DNA of 64,000 nt from an uncultured Bacilli bacterium (GTDB taxonomy: Bacteria > Bacillota_I > Bacilli_A > RF39 > UBA660), in the NCBI GenBank assembly GCA_950097225.1, contig CATNCE010000001.1:112451-176450 (forward strand). The letters run 5' to 3'. Under the pieces are notes generated by a model. It was not told the origin of the DNA. It made no database searches and worked only from the letters and a program-made list of their open reading frames with translations. Position 1 is the stretch's first letter. The number at the start of each line of letters is the position of its first letter. Position numbers and translations under genes: made by a program. Shown here in pieces: positions 53,881 through 64,000 of the stretch.

Positions 53881-53904
53881 ACTCATGAGAATAGGATGTT
53901 GCTT

Positions 53905-55590
53905 ATGAAAAAGAAAAGTATCATATATTTCTTTGTTATCGCACTTGTAATTGGATTTGCTAGTGTAACAGCAAACTTAATCATAAATAATACTTTAAAT
54001 ATTGGTTTTAATAATGCTTTCCTAGATAATGTTATATTTATAAATACTAAAACTGATGGAAAGGCATCAATTAGTTTAGATGGAAAAACAATCAGTTATG
54101 AAGCAAAAGAGTTAACTAGCATAAATGAAGGAAACACTTTAACATTTTGGATAAAAAATGAAAATACTCAATATGATGTCGAAGCCATTATATCTTGTAG
54201 TATTGATAATGCATCAGAGAATATCAAAGATTTAGTAAGTATATCAGTTGAACCTAAAAGTTTTACTTTAGCAAGTAATGAAGTAAAAAGTGGAGAAGTC
54301 AGAATAGAAATGACTAGTGTTGTTACTGAAAGTATAGATGGAAACTTCACATGTGAACTAATAGCAACACCAGTAGAAAGAGAAGAAACAGGTGTAATAA
54401 CTGATACATGTGTAAATGCATTAAATGGAGCTGATCCTGTAATAAATGGTGAGTTAATACCTGTTGAATTAGACGATAATGGTATTGTTACATATTCAGA
54501 TAAAGGTGAGTCTTGGTACAACTATTGTGAGCGAAAATGGGCCAATGCGGTGATATTAGTTGATAGTCCATCAAAGATTTATAATGTAGGTGATACAATC
54601 CAAGAGAGTGATATTGAATCATACTTCGTGTGGATACCAAGATATAGATACAAACTATTCCATACCAACCAAGCTGATGGGGTTACTGATAAATTATCTG
54701 AAAGTAATGCTCAAGAAATCGAGATTAAGTTTGAAGGTAAGGAAACACCTGTATCCGTTGGTACTCAAGACGGAGAATGGTTAACCCATCCCGCATTCAC
54801 AAATTTCGATGTAAATGGCATATGGGTAGGAAAGTTCGAAACAGGGTATAAAGGAGCGACAACTGCATCAGCTGCAGCCGTAAATTCAAGTGATCCAACG
54901 AAAATCCAGGTGAAGCCAAATGTATATTCATGGAGAGGTAGTACTGTGGGTAACTTCTTCAAAGCTATGTATAATTATAATCGTGGGTTGGATTCGCATA
55001 TGATGAAAAATACTGAGTGGGGAGCAGTTGCATATCTATCACACTCAAAATACGGAATCAATACAGAAGTGCGAATCAATAATAATTCAAATTATTTAAC
55101 TGGCTATGCGGCAAATGCAAAGGACGCTGGGTCGAGTACAACAACAAACCAATCATACAACACTGAAACCGGATATTTAGCATCAACTACTGGTAATATA
55201 ACTGGGATTTATGACATGTCTGGTGGGTCTTGGGAGTATGTAGCAGGCTACCGCGATGGAAAAGTAGGAAGTAGTGGACTAACATTAATTGAGATAAGAG
55301 ATACATATAGTAGATATATAGATGTGTATGCAAATGATTCGTCGAAAACTACTTATAGTAAGCGAATACTAGGGGATGCGACGGGAGAGATGGGACCATT
55401 TCACGGAAGAGAACCGCAATATTATAATAACTGGTACAATGATTATTCGCACTTCGCAGAGGCTTCTTATCCTTGGTTTGCGCGTGGCGGCTCTCACGAT
55501 CATACCTCTAATGCGGGCCAGTTCTACTTCAGCAGGGATACTGGTGGATCCTATAGTTATGTTAGCGCGCGTCTCGTCTTATTGGGCTAA
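53905..55590 (+). CDS. Secreted protein: TasA/camelysin-like N-domain plus C-type-lectin/FGE-like domain
   Basis: A 561-aa exported protein. Residues 5-25 are a signal/anchor helix. Residues about 27-165 resemble a TasA/camelysin-type beta domain (GKASISLDGKTISYEAKELT, LTFWIKNENTQYDVEAII). From about 200 to the end lies a formylglycine-generating-enzyme/C-type-lectin-like fold: VWIPRYRYKLF, HMMKNTEWGAVAYLS, GIYDMSGGSWEYVAG, and an end built like diversity-generating variable regions (WFARGGSHDHTSNAG ... SARLVLLG). The 3' end is much richer in G+C than the surroundings. AGGA 8 nt upstream supports ATG 53905. A truncated paralogue follows. A ligand-binding surface role is inferred; no retroelement is present here. 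Confidence 0.8.
   Translation: MKKKSIIYFFVIALVIGFASVTANLIINNTLNIGFNNAFLDNVIFINTKTDGKASISLDGKTISYEAKELTSINEGNTLTFWIKNENTQYDVEAIISCSIDNASENIKDLVSISVEPKSFTLASNEVKSGEVRIEMTSVVTESIDGNFTCELIATPVEREETGVITDTCVNALNGADPVINGELIPVELDDNGIVTYSDKGESWYNYCERKWANAVILVDSPSKIYNVGDTIQESDIESYFVWIPRYRYKLFHTNQADGVTDKLSESNAQEIEIKFEGKETPVSVGTQDGEWLTHPAFTNFDVNGIWVGKFETGYKGATTASAAAVNSSDPTKIQVKPNVYSWRGSTVGNFFKAMYNYNRGLDSHMMKNTEWGAVAYLSHSKYGINTEVRINNNSNYLTGYAANAKDAGSSTTTNQSYNTETGYLASTTGNITGIYDMSGGSWEYVAGYRDGKVGSSGLTLIEIRDTYSRYIDVYANDSSKTTYSKRILGDATGEMGPFHGREPQYYNNWYNDYSHFAEASYPWFARGGSHDHTSNAGQFYFSRDTGGSYSYVSARLVLLG
54592..54662 (+). repeat. Conserved segment shared with the downstream cassette
   Basis: Compared with 55971-56041, I count 9 differences in 71 bases, all transitions and all silent. 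This is the best conserved piece of the two lectin-like cassettes, encoding the DTIQESDIES to YKLFH stretch. Confidence 0.9.
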
Positions 55591-55679: not shown

Positions 55680-56939
55680 TCCGCTAAAGATATCTTATAT
55701 AATTCAACTGATGAAGCCTGGGAGATCGATACAGTAGATGATGCATTAAATGATTTATATAATGCATGTGTATTAGGAGAACTGCCCGGATATGGAGGGG
55801 CTATAGCAAGCGCACCATTAATAAATGGGGATTTAGTGCCAATAATAATAGCGAGTGATGGAGTAGTAACAAAAGCAAATCCAAGTGAAAAATGGTATGA
55901 TTATAATAATAAAGAATGGGCTAATGCAGTAATATTAGTAGATAATCCAAGTAAACAATATCGTATAGGAGATACAATTCAGGAAAGTGATATTGAATCA
56001 TATTTTGTATGGATACCAAGATATAGATATAAGTTATTCCATGCTAATCAGGCAGATGGATATGAAAATAAATTATCTGAGAGTATAGCACAGGAAATCG
56101 AGATTGAGTTTGAGAGTAAAGATACGCCAGTGTCAACAGGAAGTAAGAATGGAGAATGGTTAACGCATCCAGCTTTCACAAACTTTGATGTCAATGGCAT
56201 CTGGGTAGGAAAATTTGAACTTGGTTATAAAGGAGCAACAAGTGCGTTTTCAGCTTGGGCAAACTCAAGTGATTCAACCAAAATCCAAATAAAGCCTAAT
56301 GTATATCCGTGGAATGGTAATTCTATAGGCAATTATTTCAAGGCTATGTATAATTATAAACGTGATTTAGACTCGCATATGATGAAAAATACCGAGTGGG
56401 GAGCAGTGGCTTATTTATCCCAGTCGAAATATGGGATAAATACAAAAATAGAAACTAATAGTAATTCGGGATTTTTAACAGGGTATGCAACTGCAAATCA
56501 TCCCTATAATACAGAAACTGGCTATTTGGCTTCAACTACTGACAATATAAGCGGGATTTACGATATGTCTGGGGGAATTGATGAGTATGTAGCTGGATAT
56601 ATAGATGGAAATGTTGGAAATAGTGGTTTAACACTGGATGAAATAAGGAATACCTATAATAAATATATAGATGTATATGCAAGTAGTAGTGCGGCAACGA
56701 CATATAGCAATCGTATGCTAGGAGATGCAACCGGAGAGATGGGGCCATTCTATTATAATGGATCTAATTATCGAAACAACTGGTATGATGATTATTCGTA
56801 CTTTGTGGACTCTTCCTCCCCTTGGTTCCGTCGCGGCGGAGCTAGTTCAAGAGCACCTGGTTTATTTAATTTTCGGGGGAGGAGTACTATGGGAGGCGGT
56901 AGCGTAAGTGATTCTTCTCGTCTCGTTTTATTAGGATAG
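55680..56939 (+). pseudogene. 5'-truncated paralogous lectin-like cassette, probably silent
   Basis: An open frame of 419 codons follows a TAG at 55677 and matches the preceding gene from WANAVILVD to the end. It lacks a signal peptide and TasA-like domain; its first residues (SAKDILYNSTDEAWEIDT, then VDDALNDLYNACV) are a different leader. The first in-frame candidate start is GTG 55836, without a clear ribosome binding site, and no promoter is visible. The C-terminal end differs strongly from its neighbour (WFRRGGASSRAPGLFNFRGR against WFARGGSHDHTSNAGQFYF) while the flanks agree (GDATGEMGPF before, SSRLVLLG after). It is either a decayed gene or a donor cassette for recombination. The 89 bases before it hold no supported gene. 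Confidence 0.72.
55971..56041 (+). repeat. Conserved segment shared with the upstream cassette
   Basis: Partner of 54592-54662 (62 of 71 bases identical by direct count). Confidence 0.9.
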
Positions 56940-57147: not shown

Positions 57148-60100
57148 ATGGAGAAGAGAAGATTTGGAAAAATATGGCTTTGTGCAGCTATTTTAGTGAG
57201 TGTTTGTTTAGTTGCTAAATTAATTCCTAGTATGGCAAGGGTTAAAAATCGTGTTGCAACAGAAATCTCTACAGTTTGGGATGGGAGTGTTGCTAATAGT
57301 TACCGAAGTGGGAAAGGGACTAAAAGTGATCCATATATTATAGCTACTGGTTCTGAACTTGCGTATTTTGGTAAAATGCTTGAAATAACTAATTATAGTG
57401 GGACTTATTTTGCTTTAAGTAATGATATTTTGCTAAATGAAGGAATATTTTCTTATGATGATGGGCTTAAATATACTTTAAATAAGAGCTCTTTCTATCT
57501 TGATTCTAAGACTGGTAATTTTTATGATACTTCTGATTTATCAGGTGTAAAAATAGGAACTGTTAATAGTTTTAAAACTTTGAAAAACTTCAAGGGACAT
57601 TTTGATGGCAAGAGTTATACAATTTATGGAGCTTTTATAAATGGGGAAAATGATGAAATTGGTTTATTTAGTAATCTTGAGGGAAATATTACTGATTTAT
57701 ATGTAACTAATGCATCTATTAATGAAGGTAATGTTACTGGTTTGGTAACAAGTGCTAAAAATGCGACTTTAACAAATGTGGTTTTTAATGGTGTTGTCAT
57801 TGGAAAAAATGAGGATAGAGTACTTGATAAGAGTATTATGTTAGATGATTATATTGTTGATGGGAGTGCCAATATTCTTGTTGATGATGCGGAATTAAGA
57901 GGTTTCTATGGGGTGCGAAATTTAACTTTATCAGGTAAATGTGATGCTGATTTTCTTATTGATGGGGAAAATATTTCTTGTGTATCTGGTCAATTTGAAA
58001 CAGGGTTAAATCCTTTGAAGTCTAATTTTGAAGTTGCTTCTAGTGTAATTAATAATCTTTTAGAATTGAAAGTTAATGTTAGTTCTGTAGGAAATATTGC
58101 CGCAGGGATTGTTGGTTATGGTGAAAATATAACGTTAAAAAATGTTGTTAATAAGGCATTTGTAAAAGGCAATAGTGAAGGTGCTGGCTTAGTTGGTGTT
58201 GCTGTTAATAAGTTAGTGATATCTAATAGTTATAATAATGGGAATGTCGATACTTTAGGGAATCATGGAGCATTAGTTGGCCGTGTATATTCGTTAAGTG
58301 CGCTTTCTAGTATAAATAATAGTTATAATGATGGGGACGACATTGGACTTGTTGGGATGGTTGTTGGTTCTCAAGATTATCTTAGTATAACGAATTCTTT
58401 TGATATTGTTAGTAATGGTAATCTTATTCGTGATATTCAAGAGTCAGTAGTTAATTTAAATGGTGTTTATGGTTTACAAACCAATAAGTATTTGGATGGA
58501 GTAACAACAGGGAATGTTGTTAAAATCTCTAAGGCTCAGTTGATGAGCAGAGACTATCTTATCAATAACTTGCATTTTTCTGAATTTGTCGATTTAGAAG
58601 ACACAGCTACTAATTCTAATAATGTGTGGATTTATGAAGATGGATATTTGCCAATTTTATATGTTGATGATATTAAGAATCCTTTTGTAACTCTTAATTT
58701 AGGGAATTATTCGTGGAATAACTTAGGATTTGATGATAAAAAGATTAATTTCTCATCTTCAGTTGCATTTGCAATAAATGATGCTAATGACACAAGACCA
58801 ATAAAAGAAAGTTATTATTATATAAGTAAAAGTGCACAACCTTTAACAAAGACTCAAATTGATGCAATTGATACGTGGACTAAGTATGATAATATTGTAT
58901 CTATCAGTGAAGATGGTTTTTATGTTTTATATGTAAAAGCATATGACTATGACGGCAACGAAGTAATTATAAATTCGGATGTCTTGGTTGTTGATACTTT
59001 TGGATCTGATGTTTTAATAACTTTGGGAGAGCGTAAGTGGAGCTTATTTAGTGAAGATTTGGACTCGGCTTTTATAGATGATAATGCTAAAGTGGAAGTA
59101 AGTGCTACTGATGATTTATCAGGGGTTAAATATGTCCAGTATTATGTGACTGATGCTAAGTTAAACAATGATGAGTTAGATAATTTAAATTGGAGTAATT
59201 ATGAAGAAGCAATTAGCATTGATAAGCTTGGAACTTATGTGATTTATGTTCGCGTAACTGATAATGCTTTAAATGAAACTATAATTAATACAGATTATAT
59301 TATATATGGAGGGTATACCTTGAATAAGGTAGTAGTAGCTTCAGAGGAAATTGCTGATGCTAGTTTCCAAATTAGTTCTGGGTCTAAACTTGAATATAAT
59401 TTTAGTTATCAAGATCATCACTATTTCGATGATGGGGATCATCATAATGTTGTATTTAATAGAAATGTACCTAATGGGACTAAGCTTATTTTGATGGATA
59501 ATATAAGTAAGAAAGTTTATTCATATATCGTTAGTAGTGATAGTTTAGTTATTCCTTTTACTAGCTTTAGTGTATTAGGTAAAGGCAATATGTATAAGAA
59601 CTTCCAAGAGAAAACAGGAGACATTGATAAAGAAGATTATACAGTTGTAGTTGATTTTTCTGATACTATAAAGCCTAGTATAAGTGATTTAACAGTATCT
59701 ATTGATGTTCGTGATAAGAATGCTTATGTGTCGCGTTCAACGATAAAGAATACATTAAAAACGCTTAGCGTTATAGAAAATGCTGATGCTAATGTTACAT
59801 TAAGAAGCACTTATGTGGGAGATGGAATAAAGTATAATGTTGATTCTTTAGAGTTGATTGACTTATCTTTAGGTCTTCAAAATGTTACCAATGAATTTGG
59901 AATCATTAGAGATTCGAGTATTCTGTCAAAGCAGATGGGCATTGCTATTAAACTCGTTAATAAAGATGGAGTGACTATCGATAAAAGTAATATGCGCAAT
60001 ATCGAGTTTAAAATTGATGGAGAGTATTATTCTCCTGATTCAGATGGGGTTACGCGAATTAAGATTGGTGATGCATCTGCGTCCGTTTCAAAAACTTTGA

Positions 60101-60639
60101 TGGTCTTAACTTCGGCTAGTAATGCGACACTTTCTGCTGGTGAATATTATTTGTCAGTAACGCCAATACTTGCTTATGATGGTATGTATGGTGGAATAAG
60201 TACTAGTGAAAATATAGTTATTCCAGTGATTTTTGATAATGCTTTAGATAATAATGAAACGTATTCATTTAAAATTGAAAGTGAATCTGATTATAGAGTT
60301 TTATATAAAAAAGATGGTGTTGTCTCTTTAAATTATGAAGTTATAAGTGATAACTCTATTAAGAATTCGAACGTACGCGTGATGCTATATAAAAAAGATA
60401 AATTGACAGCTTATGATCAAAAATATTCTTTAATAGATTTAAATGATTATTTAGTTAATCCACTTAATGCTGTAACAGCAAATGTCTATTATGCTTTGAC
60501 CGATTTTAGCTCAGGTAATAAATTTAGTTTAAATATTGATTTAGCGCGTTTAGAAGCAAATGGTTATGAGATTGTCTTTGCTCTTTATGATGATAGTAAA
60601 AAAGTGGGAATGATTAAAGAGAAGTTCATTGTTAGATAG
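57148..60639 (+). CDS. Very large secreted surface protein with beta-helix (GLUG-like) and Ig-like regions
   Basis: A 1163-aa exported protein. A basic start and hydrophobic helix (about 9-27) form a signal/anchor, followed by WDGSVANSYRSGKGTKSDPY, the usual opening of GLUG/right-handed beta-helix surface proteins. Residues about 60-480 are irregular beta-helix-like repeats (FKGHFDGKSYTIYGAF, GAGLVGV, NSYNNGNVDTLG). From about 520, Ig-like units with ATDDLSGVKYVQYYV and YVIYVRVTDNALNE recur. The last 400 residues are unassigned beta-rich sequence. No LPxTG sorting motif is seen. It starts the likely operon with the TasA-like genes (13 bases to the next start). Adhesin or fibre-anchor role inferred. 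Confidence 0.8.
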   Translation: MEKRRFGKIWLCAAILVSVCLVAKLIPSMARVKNRVATEISTVWDGSVANSYRSGKGTKSDPYIIATGSELAYFGKMLEITNYSGTYFALSNDILLNEGIFSYDDGLKYTLNKSSFYLDSKTGNFYDTSDLSGVKIGTVNSFKTLKNFKGHFDGKSYTIYGAFINGENDEIGLFSNLEGNITDLYVTNASINEGNVTGLVTSAKNATLTNVVFNGVVIGKNEDRVLDKSIMLDDYIVDGSANILVDDAELRGFYGVRNLTLSGKCDADFLIDGENISCVSGQFETGLNPLKSNFEVASSVINNLLELKVNVSSVGNIAAGIVGYGENITLKNVVNKAFVKGNSEGAGLVGVAVNKLVISNSYNNGNVDTLGNHGALVGRVYSLSALSSINNSYNDGDDIGLVGMVVGSQDYLSITNSFDIVSNGNLIRDIQESVVNLNGVYGLQTNKYLDGVTTGNVVKISKAQLMSRDYLINNLHFSEFVDLEDTATNSNNVWIYEDGYLPILYVDDIKNPFVTLNLGNYSWNNLGFDDKKINFSSSVAFAINDANDTRPIKESYYYISKSAQPLTKTQIDAIDTWTKYDNIVSISEDGFYVLYVKAYDYDGNEVIINSDVLVVDTFGSDVLITLGERKWSLFSEDLDSAFIDDNAKVEVSATDDLSGVKYVQYYVTDAKLNNDELDNLNWSNYEEAISIDKLGTYVIYVRVTDNALNETIINTDYIIYGGYTLNKVVVASEEIADASFQISSGSKLEYNFSYQDHHYFDDGDHHNVVFNRNVPNGTKLILMDNISKKVYSYIVSSDSLVIPFTSFSVLGKGNMYKNFQEKTGDIDKEDYTVVVDFSDTIKPSISDLTVSIDVRDKNAYVSRSTIKNTLKTLSVIENADANVTLRSTYVGDGIKYNVDSLELIDLSLGLQNVTNEFGIIRDSSILSKQMGIAIKLVNKDGVTIDKSNMRNIEFKIDGEYYSPDSDGVTRIKIGDASASVSKTLMVLTSASNATLSAGEYYLSVTPILAYDGMYGGISTSENIVIPVIFDNALDNNETYSFKIESESDYRVLYKKDGVVSLNYEVISDNSIKNSNVRVMLYKKDKLTAYDQKYSLIDLNDYLVNPLNAVTANVYYALTDFSSGNKFSLNIDLARLEANGYEIVFALYDDSKKVGMIKEKFIVR

Positions 60640-60652
60640 GAGTAGTGGTATT

Positions 60653-61192
60653 ATGAAAAGTAAAATATTAGTAGGTTTGTTTATTGCTGCTGCTATTCTA
60701 TTTAGCACGGGACTTACATATTCGATTTTTACATCATCGGCAACAATGAGTACTAATAATCAAAAGATTGCCAAATTTATTTTTAATGCAGAACAGACGG
60801 ATGAATTTTTAGTTCCTATAAATGACTTAGTTCCTAATACGTTTAAAGAGTTTGAATTTCAAGTAAGTAATAATTCTAATGGCCAAAATACCAATGTTAA
60901 TTTAAATTATCAGATTACTATTAAGACGTTTCATTTTATGCCGTTAGTTATTGAACTTTATAAGGTAGGAGTGGAAGATGCTATAATGGTTTGTGATGAA
61001 TCGTATACACGTAATACTGATAATGAATTAGTGTGTAATTCTTCTTATCAAGAGATGCGTTATGATAAAGAAGTAATAGATGATTATAAGTTAAAGGTGA
61101 CATTTCCTTCCGAATATAATGGGGATGAATATGCGTCTTTAGTAGATTATATTGATCTTAGTATTGCTAGCTTCCAGAAAGTAGATAAGTAG
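60653..61192 (+). CDS. TasA/camelysin-like secreted fibre subunit
   Basis: A 179-aa secreted protein: signal peptide about 1-25 (ILVGLFIAAAILFSTGLTYS) then IFTSSATMSTNNQKIAKFIF, matching the start of TasA/camelysin proteins (short aromatic motif, then a first strand after the SipW cleavage zone). The strand EFEFQVSNNSN is the family's F-x-V-x-N element. TasA polymerises into biofilm fibres in B. subtilis after SipW processing. A SipW-type peptidase lies 1.7 kb downstream. TAGGAGTAGTGG precedes ATG 60653. Confidence 0.75.
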   Translation: MKSKILVGLFIAAAILFSTGLTYSIFTSSATMSTNNQKIAKFIFNAEQTDEFLVPINDLVPNTFKEFEFQVSNNSNGQNTNVNLNYQITIKTFHFMPLVIELYKVGVEDAIMVCDESYTRNTDNELVCNSSYQEMRYDKEVIDDYKLKVTFPSEYNGDEYASLVDYIDLSIASFQKVDK

Positions 61193-61201
61193 GCGATGAT
61201 T

Positions 61202-62092
61202 ATGAAAAAAAGTTTAAAGATATCGATAATAATTATTGTTGGGATAGTAGCATTAATTGCGACTCAATATGGTTTATCCTATGCTAAATATGCATATAAT
61301 TCTGTTTGGAATTATTATTTAAAGTCAAAGAAATTTTATTTTGATAGTGATTCACTTGGCGTTGATATTAAAACCCATGTTGATAAGTTGTGGAATGGGG
61401 ATAAAGTATATTTTAATATTAGGAATAGCTTAAATGATTTAGAGATAAGTGAAAGCGATATTGAGTATAAAGTTACTTGTGAAGTTAAGAATAGTTCTAA
61501 TAATGCTGTTTGTGATCTTATGGATACAGGTACTAATACTTATACAGGCGTTTTATCAGCTTATAAGAAATGTGTGAACAAGACAGGAGATAATGTCGAT
61601 GTTTCTTCATTTGATAGGAGTACATGTGAGATAAGTGGTTATGAGTGGGATATAAGTGTTGCTAATCGGGAGTTGTATTTTACCCTTTTGAGTGATAGTG
61701 GAGAAGTTGAGACTGCTGATGTGGTAATTACAGTTGTCAGTACAAGTCCTTATAAAAAAACTTTAAAGGGAGAATATATTTTGAATCGCGATAAAAATAT
61801 GCTTGGACGTATTATGCATGATTATAATGATTTTGGGCTAGAGGGACAGTTAGTGTTAACTAATACTTTTTCTGAGGCTAAGTGTTTGATGATTAATTTT
61901 GATTCTACGAAGTTAGTTGTTGATCACAACGATAAGAAGATTAAAAAGTATGCCACTGATAGTGATGGATATATTAACGAAATTGTTGTTATGGTAGATG
62001 GTGTATCTAGTGAGATTATTCCTTTTTATGATCGAGTATTAAATGATTATAGTAAAGATCATTTTACGATTGTGGAAAGTAATGAGTGTTAG
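61202..62092 (+). CDS. Second TasA/TapA-like secreted protein
   Basis: A 296-aa exported protein with a signal helix (about 6-24) followed by the block YAKYAYNSVWNYYLKSKKFY, which I associate with SipW-dependent camelysin-like proteins of gut Firmicutes. The remainder is beta-rich with several Cys (TCEV, VCDL, KKCVN, TCEI) that could form disulfides. It may be a minor fibre component or anchor like TapA. ATG 61202 is 8 nt after AGG; the ATG at 61196 is too close to that site. It follows the TasA-like gene after 9 bases. Confidence 0.72.
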   Translation: MKKSLKISIIIIVGIVALIATQYGLSYAKYAYNSVWNYYLKSKKFYFDSDSLGVDIKTHVDKLWNGDKVYFNIRNSLNDLEISESDIEYKVTCEVKNSSNNAVCDLMDTGTNTYTGVLSAYKKCVNKTGDNVDVSSFDRSTCEISGYEWDISVANRELYFTLLSDSGEVETADVVITVVSTSPYKKTLKGEYILNRDKNMLGRIMHDYNDFGLEGQLVLTNTFSEAKCLMINFDSTKLVVDHNDKKIKKYATDSDGYINEIVVMVDGVSSEIIPFYDRVLNDYSKDHFTIVESNEC

Positions 62093-62121
62093 TTGCTATT
62101 TGATAGCTTCTATGCTATGAT
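62093..62121 (+). promoter_or_regulatory. Possible internal promoter before the SipW-like pseudoenzyme
   Basis: TTGCTA (62093-62098), 17-nt spacer, TATGAT (62116-62121). Confidence 0.35.
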
Positions 62122-62153
62122 TGGTATGATAGTAGAAGTAGGAGGTAAAGAAA

Positions 62154-62675
62154 ATGTGGGAGAAAGTTAAGAGTATATTAGTTACAATATTCTGTTTTAT
62201 ATATTTTTCGTTTGCATTAAGTATGACAGTGCTATTATTAAATTTCAATGACTATGGAGTTACTCAATTTGGGGAGACTTCAATTGTTGTTTTAAAAGAA
62301 AAGGTTAATTTTGAGGGATTTAAAAAAGGACAGGTTGTAATAGTTGAATCAGAGTCTGTTAGCAATTATCAGGTTGGCGATATCGTGTTTACTTATCGCG
62401 TTATCAATAAAATACCGCATATTGAAGTTGGCAAAGTTGGGGAAGTATATTTAAATGAGCGAGCTATTGCTTATGAAAATGGTGATACTTATTCAGAAGA
62501 ATATATTATTGGAAAACCGACAAAGACTTATAATAAAATGGGAACATTTTTAGCAGTAATTCAGTCTAAATGGGGATTTTTGTTTATTATTTTAGTTCCA
62601 TGTTTCTTATTATTTATTTATCAAATATTTGCTTTGGTAGTAGAAATAAAATATGGTTCAGAAAGTACAGTTTAA
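62154..62675 (+). CDS. SipW-fold signal peptidase-like protein lacking the catalytic serine
   Basis: A 173-aa membrane protein with helices at about 7-29 and 145-165 and the SipW fold between. VGDIVFTYRVINK matches the family's VGDIITFxxx segment and EYIIGKPTKTYNKMGTFLAV matches the NIIGKVxxxIPxxG end. At the place of the S-G-S-M-E-P motif it has VLKEKVNFEG, so the nucleophilic Ser and the following Met are absent, and no T-H-R motif is present. It is probably a non-catalytic partner of the adjacent SipW or of the fibre subunits. TAGGAGGTAAAG precedes ATG 62154. Confidence 0.72.
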   Translation: MWEKVKSILVTIFCFIYFSFALSMTVLLLNFNDYGVTQFGETSIVVLKEKVNFEGFKKGQVVIVESESVSNYQVGDIVFTYRVINKIPHIEVGKVGEVYLNERAIAYENGDTYSEEYIIGKPTKTYNKMGTFLAVIQSKWGFLFIILVPCFLLFIYQIFALVVEIKYGSESTV

Positions 62676-62697
62676 GAGCTACTATGCTCTTTTTTAT
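62674..62697 (+). terminator. Terminator after the SipW-like pseudoenzyme
   Basis: AAGAGC (62674-62679), 6-nt loop, GCTCTT (62686-62691), then TTTT. Confidence 0.75.
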
Positions 62698-62780
62698 TTG
62701 GCATCAATGCATAAATTGGGATTGTTGGAAGGAAGTTTTTTATTGTTCTGATTTTTTGTTAGAAAGTTTGGCTAAAAATA

Positions 62781-62809
62781 TTGTTTAATTTTGTCGAATA
62801 TGATAGAAT
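62781..62809 (+). promoter_or_regulatory. Promoter of the SipW-type signal peptidase gene
   Basis: TTGTTT (62781-62786), 17-nt spacer, TGA-TAGAAT (box 62804-62809). Confidence 0.65.
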
Positions 62810-62852
62810 CAGTTATAGTAGAAGAGTAGTATGAAAATAGGAGTGTGTTATT

Positions 62853-64000
62853 ATGCTGTCTAAAAGTAGTTTGTTGAAAAGGATTGTTAATGTCATATTA
62901 AATATTTTCATTACTATATTTATAATCGTATTGTTGATTACTCTTTATAATAATTTGCAGGTAACTGTTTTGAAGAATACTTATGCTAGTTTTTTTGGAT
63001 ACTCTATATTTGAGGTGCAAACAGGCAGTATGGAACCTAGTATATCTCCTGGAGATTGTGTAATAACGCATTATGTTAACGAAGTCGAGTTAGATGATGT
63101 TATAACTTTTCAAAGGAATGGAGAGTTTATAACGCATAGAGTAATAGAAGCATATAAGGGGACTTACGTTACCAAGGGGGATGCTAATAATGCTAAAGAT
63201 GAGCCAATTAGTCGTGAACAAATAGTCGGAAAAGTTGTGAAGATAATTCCTAATGTTGGAGCGATGCGCAGTACTATATTGAATCCGGTTGTCTTAATTG
63301 GCTTAATTATTACTTTCTATCTTTTAACATTTGCTTTTAAAGATAGAAAAAAAGTGGTTGAGGTTGATGTAAATATACGTGAAGAAAAAGAAGTGAAATC
63401 TATGAAGTTAAAGGAAATGTTAAAGTCTTTGTTAAAAAAGAATGAAAAAGTAGTAACACCAAAGAAAGTAGTCATTATTCCTCCAAAAGAAGAGATAAAA
63501 GAGGAAGTTATTAGTGCTGTAGATAATGAAATCGAGGATGATGTTCGTTTAGAAGAAGATATAATAAAGTCTGATTCAACTGATGAGTACTTGGATGATG
63601 AGCTTGATAAAACGATCGTGTTTCGAATGGTAGCAGTTGATGGTGATGAACTAGATAAATCGTATAAGAAGATTTTGAAGTTAAATGAGGAAGAAGAACT
63701 AAAAGAGAAAAAAGAACAAATAAAAAGAGAAAAACGCGAAGAGAAAAATAAAAGTAGTGTTAAAGAGAAAGTTAAAAAGCCAGGTATTACCGATGAGTTA
63801 GATCGCATACAAAAGAAGAAAAAGAAATTTAAAAACATAATTGAAAAGGCAATGTTTATCAAGGAAGATGAAGTTAGTTTGATGGTGGATATTTTGTTAA
63901 GGGATGAGGCTAGTAAACCAGGAATTCCTTCGATAAAAAATACTTTTGTCAAGACATATATAGATGGTAAATACTACAACTATTGTGGCAATGTTAATTT
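62853..64000 (+). CDS. SipW-type signal peptidase I with long charged C-terminal tail (3' end outside window)
   Basis: At least 382 residues, open to the window end. N-terminal membrane helix about 11-31; catalytic motif T-G-S59-M-E-P; second box I-T-H95-R-V with His in place of the Lys of ordinary SipS-type enzymes, the mark of the SipW/ER class; KGDANNAKDEP motif; second membrane helix about 144-162. It should cleave signal peptides of the TasA-like proteins just upstream. SipW proteins are about 190 aa; here over 220 highly charged Lys/Glu residues follow the second helix, with some regularity (KEEIKEEV, EEEELKEKKEQIKREKREEK). GGAG lies 10 nt before ATG 62853. Confidence 0.9.
   Translation, partial: MLSKSSLLKRIVNVILNIFITIFIIVLLITLYNNLQVTVLKNTYASFFGYSIFEVQTGSMEPSISPGDCVITHYVNEVELDDVITFQRNGEFITHRVIEAYKGTYVTKGDANNAKDEPISREQIVGKVVKIIPNVGAMRSTILNPVVLIGLIITFYLLTFAFKDRKKVVEVDVNIREEKEVKSMKLKEMLKSLLKKNEKVVTPKKVVIIPPKEEIKEEVISAVDNEIEDDVRLEEDIIKSDSTDEYLDDELDKTIVFRMVAVDGDELDKSYKKILKLNEEEELKEKKEQIKREKREEKNKSSVKEKVKKPGITDELDRIQKKKKKFKNIIEKAMFIKEDEVSLMVDILLRDEASKPGIPSIKNTFVKTYIDGKYYNYCGNVN

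Follow-up and report, generated by a model that had tools for sequence, protein, structure and literature searches.

Dedicated SipW-type signal peptidases are encoded beside small secreted beta-sandwich proteins in the tapA-sipW-tasA operon of B. subtilis and the sipW-calY genes of B. cereus. TasA has a phenylalanine at P2′ and is cut by its dedicated peptidase SipW (PMC10269814); TasA and TapA use a donor-strand mechanism (PMC10151520; PMC9674648). As described, these loci contain no McrB or DUF2357 gene, no dead or Asp-less SipW paralogue and no SipW fusion. A combination of an McrBC-like NTPase with a signal peptidase was named ‘CoCoPALM’ by Bell et al. 2024, who gave it one paragraph and called the N-terminus of its McrB FtsB-like (PMC11090510); the main text of that paper names no substrates, and within the literature searched the name was found only there and in its preprint.

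The window, by which we mean the whole 64,000-nucleotide stretch of DNA analysed, covers C1:112451-176450 of the 1.61 Mb genome, in 58 contigs, of a gut bacterium. It contains five consecutive genes, C to G, all on the plus strand and separated by 13, 3, 61 and 177 bp (C-D, D-E, E-F and F-G), just as a first-pass annotation of the window had placed them (Table 1). The locus is only half inside the window, and same-strand genes carry on in the contig beyond G. The annotation had read the layout as an expanded and rearranged tapA-sipW-tasA operon, which suggested a distinct surface-fibre system. At the centre of the operon, however, are a membrane McrB-like NTPase (H) and its DUF2357 partner (I), so the layout is not simply a rearrangement; this core was overlooked since it lies past the window edge.

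The candidate substrates of the locus look like TasA and TapA, and its cytoplasmic pair looks like McrB and McrC. With the B. subtilis and B. cereus loci it shares a dedicated SipW-type peptidase beside small beta-sandwich secreted proteins, an aromatic P2′ site and, in relatives of D, matches to the TapA model. With E. coli McrBC, a type IV restriction system, it has in common the DUF2357 domain of I and the NTPase core of H, which matches 6hz4 at E=5e-5, but in H a membrane anchor replaces the DNA-binding domain and the motif is NxD instead of NxxD, no nuclease model matched I, and the pair is linked to secretion genes. The likeness to CoCoPALM goes further: H is an NxD-type McrB GTPase with an N-terminal transmembrane segment and a coiled coil, I is a DUF2357 McrC homologue in the next gene with no recognised nuclease, and the neighbours belong to the signal-peptidase family. 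All four of the listed CoCoPALM features that were examined are found here, and by sequence comparison we assign the locus to that kind; Pfam searches place it outside both the TasA family (PF12389) and the McrBC restriction systems. Relative to the CoCoPALM description, the locus has in addition three SipW states, a SipW-tail fusion, the surface proteins E and C, and TapA/TasA-like candidate substrates. What is new beyond Bell et al. is the likely substrates and an elaborated subtype.

Table 1. Genes of the locus and its flanks. Positions are those of the window unless a contig (C1) or locus (L002) is named.
Gene	Position	Strand	Description
FGE/C-type-lectin surface protein	53896-55590	+	FGE-sulfatase match weak (E=0.017); outside the conserved operon
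Truncated FGE/C-type-lectin paralogue	55836-56939	+	No signal sequence; outside the operon
C	57148-60639	+	1163 aa; large secreted surface protein
D	60653-61192	+	179 aa; TapA/TasA-like small secreted protein
E	61196-62092	+	298 aa; alternative ATG at 61202; predicted membrane-anchored Ig-like protein
F	62154-62675	+	173 aa; catalytically dead SipW-fold paralogue
G	62853-64000 in the window; whole gene C1:175303-177369	+	688 aa; ORF open at the window end
H	C1:177366-178892	+	508 aa; McrB-like NTPase; 4-bp overlap with G
I	C1:178906-180033	+	375 aa; DUF2357 protein
J	C1:180042-180608	+	188 aa; second SipW-like protein
K	C1:180628-181848	+	406 aa; TasA-like
L	C1:181919-182533	opposite	204 aa
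FGE gene, N, O, P, Q (282-448 aa)	Downstream, beyond L		
R	Downstream, beyond L; L002:11448-13079		543 aa

Three SipW states and a membrane McrB-like NTPase

G matches the model for signal peptidase I of the archaeal/SipW type (TIGR02228) above its cut-off (E=3e-21), and the SipW model NF046067 at E=2.8e-16 (60 bits, against a Bacillus-specific cut-off of 190). The SipW-type peptidase occupies residues 1-170 and is followed by a cytoplasmic tail, the last about 340 aa of which we call Gc. Because a hydropathy scan places transmembrane segments at 11-29 and about 135-153, we predict that the catalytic part lies outside the cell and the long tail inside. In an alignment of SipW-fold sequences anchored on G's catalytic residues, the Ser-His-Asp set was present in 64 of 64 canonical peptidases, so that G can be retained as the intact SipW-type peptidase of the first-pass annotation. 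J and its relatives have Ser-His in 73 of 73 sequences, and in 72 of these the Asp is replaced by I, L, V, T or N; this Asp matters for SipW activity in B. subtilis. The catalytic set is absent from every orthologue of F, which matches TIGR02228 at E=0.0013 and, in profile-profile comparison, is joined to G with 97.1% and to J with 99.5% probability. These results agree with the earlier description of F as a SipW fold lacking the catalytic Ser, and at the sequence level F is a real paralogue that is catalytically dead. Each locus has two or three SipW-fold genes, and the paralogues are fixed in three states: active, Asp-less and dead. A further SipW-like peptidase, recognised by eye, lies away from the operon on contig C16 (L117:442-1819), next to the gene for a small secreted protein whose signal reads TFAYF.

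No family was recognised for Gc; its C-terminus shows a faint beta/alpha alternation. Among loci with enough flank, Gc is fused to SipW in 45 and is a separate gene in 29, and no other observation hints as strongly that peptidase and NTPase are physically linked.

The profile of the H family matches E. coli McrB structures (6hz4, 6ut6 and 7vsr) at E=5e-5 to 7e-5, whereas a phmmer search of PDB with the single H sequence did not find McrB. H carries a Walker A motif (GISGTGKTS), a Walker B motif (LDEMN) and an invariant N-N-D-D of the NxD form; TINNDD is invariant in 32 H sequences, and the eight loci from other families described below have T-[AI]-N-x-DD. A hydropathy scan shows one strong transmembrane segment, at 62-80, with five basic residues behind it, which predicts a cytoplasmic NTPase domain. 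The charged heptad-like region that follows was judged by eye to be a coiled coil. Beyond these two elements no specificity domain was recognised in H, and Pfam did not find the McrB DNA-binding domain. I has a DUF2357 domain (PF09823, E=1.1e-10), and in the Pfam search no nuclease model, including the PD-D/ExK nuclease of McrC, matched it.

An McrBC-like pair raises the question of defence. In an antiphage or stress system the pair would sense an invader, with the peptidases and surface proteins serving as effectors or remodelling the surface into a barrier. H does match a candidate-defence model of PADLOC (PDC-M26A, E=1e-38), McrB and DUF2357 are known best from restriction (PMC11090510), and the genes are patchily present, in 41 of 145 family genomes. 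Against this stand the failure of any nuclease model to match I and of any specificity domain to be recognised in H, as well as a mean column identity of 68% in H, unusually high and unlike that of fast-evolving defence genes; gene maps, in which the flanks were annotated unsystematically, revealed no defence-island neighbours. We consider a defence role unlikely, if the least improbable of the alternatives.

Conservation of gene order and distribution

A scan of genome contigs yielded 80 loci (H 54-84% identical). They come from metagenome-assembled genomes, most of which carry the label Bacilli, Tenericutes, Mollicutes or Clostridia. Gene maps show the order C-D-E-F-G-H-I-J-K-L in one group of loci, and SipW-L-SipW-D-E-Gc-H-I-J-K-L in a second, in which SipW (about 170 aa in many loci) and Gc (mostly 316-394 aa when it stands alone) are separate genes. 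Counting only loci with enough flank, Gc adjoins H in 73 of 74 and I is adjacent to H in 76 of 78; J is found in 72 of 77, K in 66 of 67, D in 47 of 54, E in 49 of 54 and L in 53 of 63. Homologues of C, 1000-2000 aa long in relatives, occur in 36 loci. Median intergenic gaps across the loci are 2-14 bp, and the adjacency of the operon genes is not due to chance. Linkage with the peptidase in relatives, which the first-pass annotation had proposed as a check on its reading, is thus borne out in about 80 loci. R, which has neither a transmembrane segment nor a signal and for which no family was found, accompanies the operon in 26 loci. A gene resembling a penicillin-binding protein, by eye, lies directly downstream of the operon.

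Co-occurrence points the same way. H is present in 40 of 145 family genomes, and one further weak match was left out of the co-occurrence counts. E is found in 30 of the 40 H-positive genomes and in 2 of the other 105 (Fisher p=3e-20, a value that is indicative only, because the genomes share ancestry and relatedness inflates it). Strong matches to L number 33 among family genomes, 31 of them in H-positive ones and the other 2 in genomes that lack H.

The NTPase extends well beyond the family: it is present in 72 of 288 genomes of the order and in 79 of 392 of the phylum sample, and reaches no fewer than eight further families in this class. In eight loci drawn from those genomes the arrangement is, with variations, N-O/Q-SipW-McrB-DUF2357-SipW-TasA-like. 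All eight retain the NTPase motifs and an N-terminal transmembrane segment, DUF2357 was recognised in six, and D, E and Gc were recognisable in none. The combination of SipW, McrB, DUF2357 and TasA-like proteins thus looks like the older core, of which the window locus is an elaborated form. In four loci from other families of the class (L174, L175, L177 and L179) the DUF2357 partner is 554-664 aa long, against 375 here; this would fit extra coiled-coil domains.

These patterns bear on a second alternative, that this is an ordinary TasA/SipW biofilm-fibre operon and the McrBC-like neighbours are regulatory or accidental passengers. TasA, TapA and SipW are enough in B. subtilis, and B. cereus uses TasA, CalY and CapP (PMC10151520, PMC13082335). 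Yet the tight spacing and co-occurrence, the fusion of SipW to a domain otherwise found as a neighbour of mcrB, and the same linkage in other families all argue against passengers, and we regard this explanation as improbable, slightly more so than defence.

Candidate substrates and surface proteins

The first-pass annotation had taken D and E for two small TasA/TapA-like proteins and had proposed a structure prediction for a jelly-roll TasA fold. For D this holds in part. The fold sought, that of TasA and TapA, is a sandwich of jelly-roll or V-set Ig-like type completed by an N-terminal strand. The TapA model TIGR04087 is matched by 8 of 47 members of the D family, the best at E=6.4e-7 over residues 3-167 (29.2 bits); no relative reaches the 80-bit cut-off, and D of the window itself has no TIGR04087 match. 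The AF2 model of D (pLDDT 83) has an N-terminal helix at 2-20, a flexible or disordered segment at 26-47 and then a jelly-roll-like beta-sandwich. Its top folds in Foldseek are of the jelly-roll and CBM-like types: the Pgp3 C-terminal domain, collagenase binding domains, CBM4 and TNF-like folds. The matches are weak, with no E below 3e-3 and TM-scores under 0.5 except one (0.54, target-normalised), and TasA is absent among the 50 matches listed.

For E the earlier assignment fails. Its AF2 model (pLDDT 93) has a helix at 3-44 followed by two Ig/FnIII-like beta domains, and Foldseek matched it at E about 1e-5 to RbmA, the V. cholerae biofilm scaffold, to VesC and to other Ig folds; global TM-scores were low, as expected for multi-domain matches. 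The model thus favours a membrane-anchored two-domain Ig-like protein over a TasA fold. C is beta-rich, with Ig repeats resembling OmpL47 (NF047446, E=4.5e-11) and, weakly, Big_7 (E=0.011).

In the search against camelysin/TasA families, Peptidase_M73 (PF12389) has no match in the genome, and among 195 phylum genomes the Pfam camelysin model matched three, in its N-terminal part only, so that no useful TasA profile was obtained. Profiles of D, K and L found no convincing sequence match in PDB, and the L family gave only scattered weak chance matches in Pfam and NCBIfam. Compared profile to profile, the D, K, L and E families score 93-96% probability against each other in the pairs examined. 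Most of these alignments cover chiefly the N-terminal part, but that of K-L extends over 176 columns.

A motif in this N-terminal part is widely shared. Following the hydrophobic core at the N-terminus, the sequence [AGS]-x-[FYW] is present in 50 of 50 D, 54 of 54 E, 71 of 73 K, 58 of 58 L and 44 of 44 O sequences, compared with 46 of the 168 remaining ORFs in these loci whose N-terminus is hydrophobic. Under a stricter definition the counts are 31, 42, 61, 52 and 42, respectively, and 8 of the 168. These counts are not independent, because sequences within each family are related. O and P carry the signal STYAWF, and Q a similar one. We predict that the TasA-like members have in common an [A/G/S]-x-aromatic site of the SipW type.

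The two FGE genes upstream of C were considered as operon members and rejected, as homologues occur in only 4 of 113 loci. They are relatives of genes targeted elsewhere in the genome by a diversity-generating retroelement, whose targets are FGE/C-type-lectin surface proteins. Its template (C49:187-330) has a DGR-type reverse transcriptase beside it, and there is a broken avd-like ORF. A DNA search with the template gave 28 additional matches, 48 to 142 bp long, and one 23-bp end piece; the 1.6 Mb genome appears to contain a single template and about 25-28 variable copies scattered over it (at L119-L137 and other places), and this remote target set looks unusually large. Of 495 mismatches in the 19 copies examined, 373 (75%) fall at template adenines, which make up 27% of sites. 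Variable regions were compared with the contigs carrying reverse transcriptases by an ungapped scan; BLAST of the same regions against these contigs gave no matches. That the window FGE genes are clean variable copies made from the C49 template is not supported (in the best one, 20 of the 45 mismatches lie at A), and the second, which has apparently had its signal sequence deleted, resembles a broken target gene. Contig C16 carries another DGR-like reverse transcriptase, accompanied by an Avd-like gene (L117:6051-7474, minus strand) and close to a further FGE surface-protein gene; no template for this reverse transcriptase was found.

A putative filament-assembly machine coupled to an McrBC-like NTPase

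We favour, with a probability of roughly 55%, the reading that the locus is an operon dedicated to a surface filament, whose machinery for export and assembly is coupled to an McrBC-like NTPase in the cytoplasm. From genes and models we infer filament formation, the donor-strand step and the motor role of the NTPase, as follows. The beta-sandwich subunits (D, K, L and the O/P/Q group) would be exported and remain tethered through their N-terminal helix until the active peptidase G cuts them at the A/G/S-x-aromatic site. J, with Ser-His but no Asp, and the dead F may act as accessory or scaffold subunits of a processing complex, and E as a membrane-anchored Ig-like base or chaperone. Cleavage would free an N-terminal strand, allowing subunits to polymerise by donor-strand exchange as TasA does; in the model of D, the flexible segment before the sandwich is what such an exchange would need. 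On the cytoplasmic side, H may form a ring with the Gc tail and with I, its McrC-like activator. This ring, linked through Gc to the G/J/F membrane complex, would use nucleotide hydrolysis to assemble or gate the complex or to deliver subunits.

The least probable alternative is a role in envelope biogenesis or cell division, in which an FtsB-like anchor would place the NTPase at the septum and the Ig/jelly-roll proteins would form a sheath or division-linked matrix: H has an N-terminus of the CoCoPALM kind that Bell et al. call FtsB-like (PMC11090510) and the penicillin-binding-protein-like gene lies next door, but patchy presence among close relatives speaks against an essential division role and the candidate substrates look like surface filaments.

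Within the filament-assembly reading, B. subtilis TasA assembles without such an NTPase, which counts against NTPase-driven assembly here, and H could serve defence or signalling instead. Only tentatively do we propose a specific form of that reading, in which a membrane McrBC-type NTPase, acting through a fused or docked peptidase, powers or gates the steps by which TasA-type filaments are processed and polymerised. This would be an energised donor-strand pathway in Gram-positive-type cells of a kind not previously described.

Active, Asp-less and dead signal peptidases recur as a conserved set of three, which suggests that they form a processing complex and is reminiscent of the multi-subunit signal peptidase complex of eukaryotes. 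More broadly, the locus joins two fields, that of TasA/SipW biofilm filaments and that of McrBC restriction NTPases, and it suggests that McrBC-type motors can help to construct surface filaments and not to destroy DNA. If fibre assembly is indeed driven by H and I, some of the McrBC superfamily acts in secretion instead of nucleic-acid destruction, and homologues now flagged as defence candidates would need to be re-labelled.
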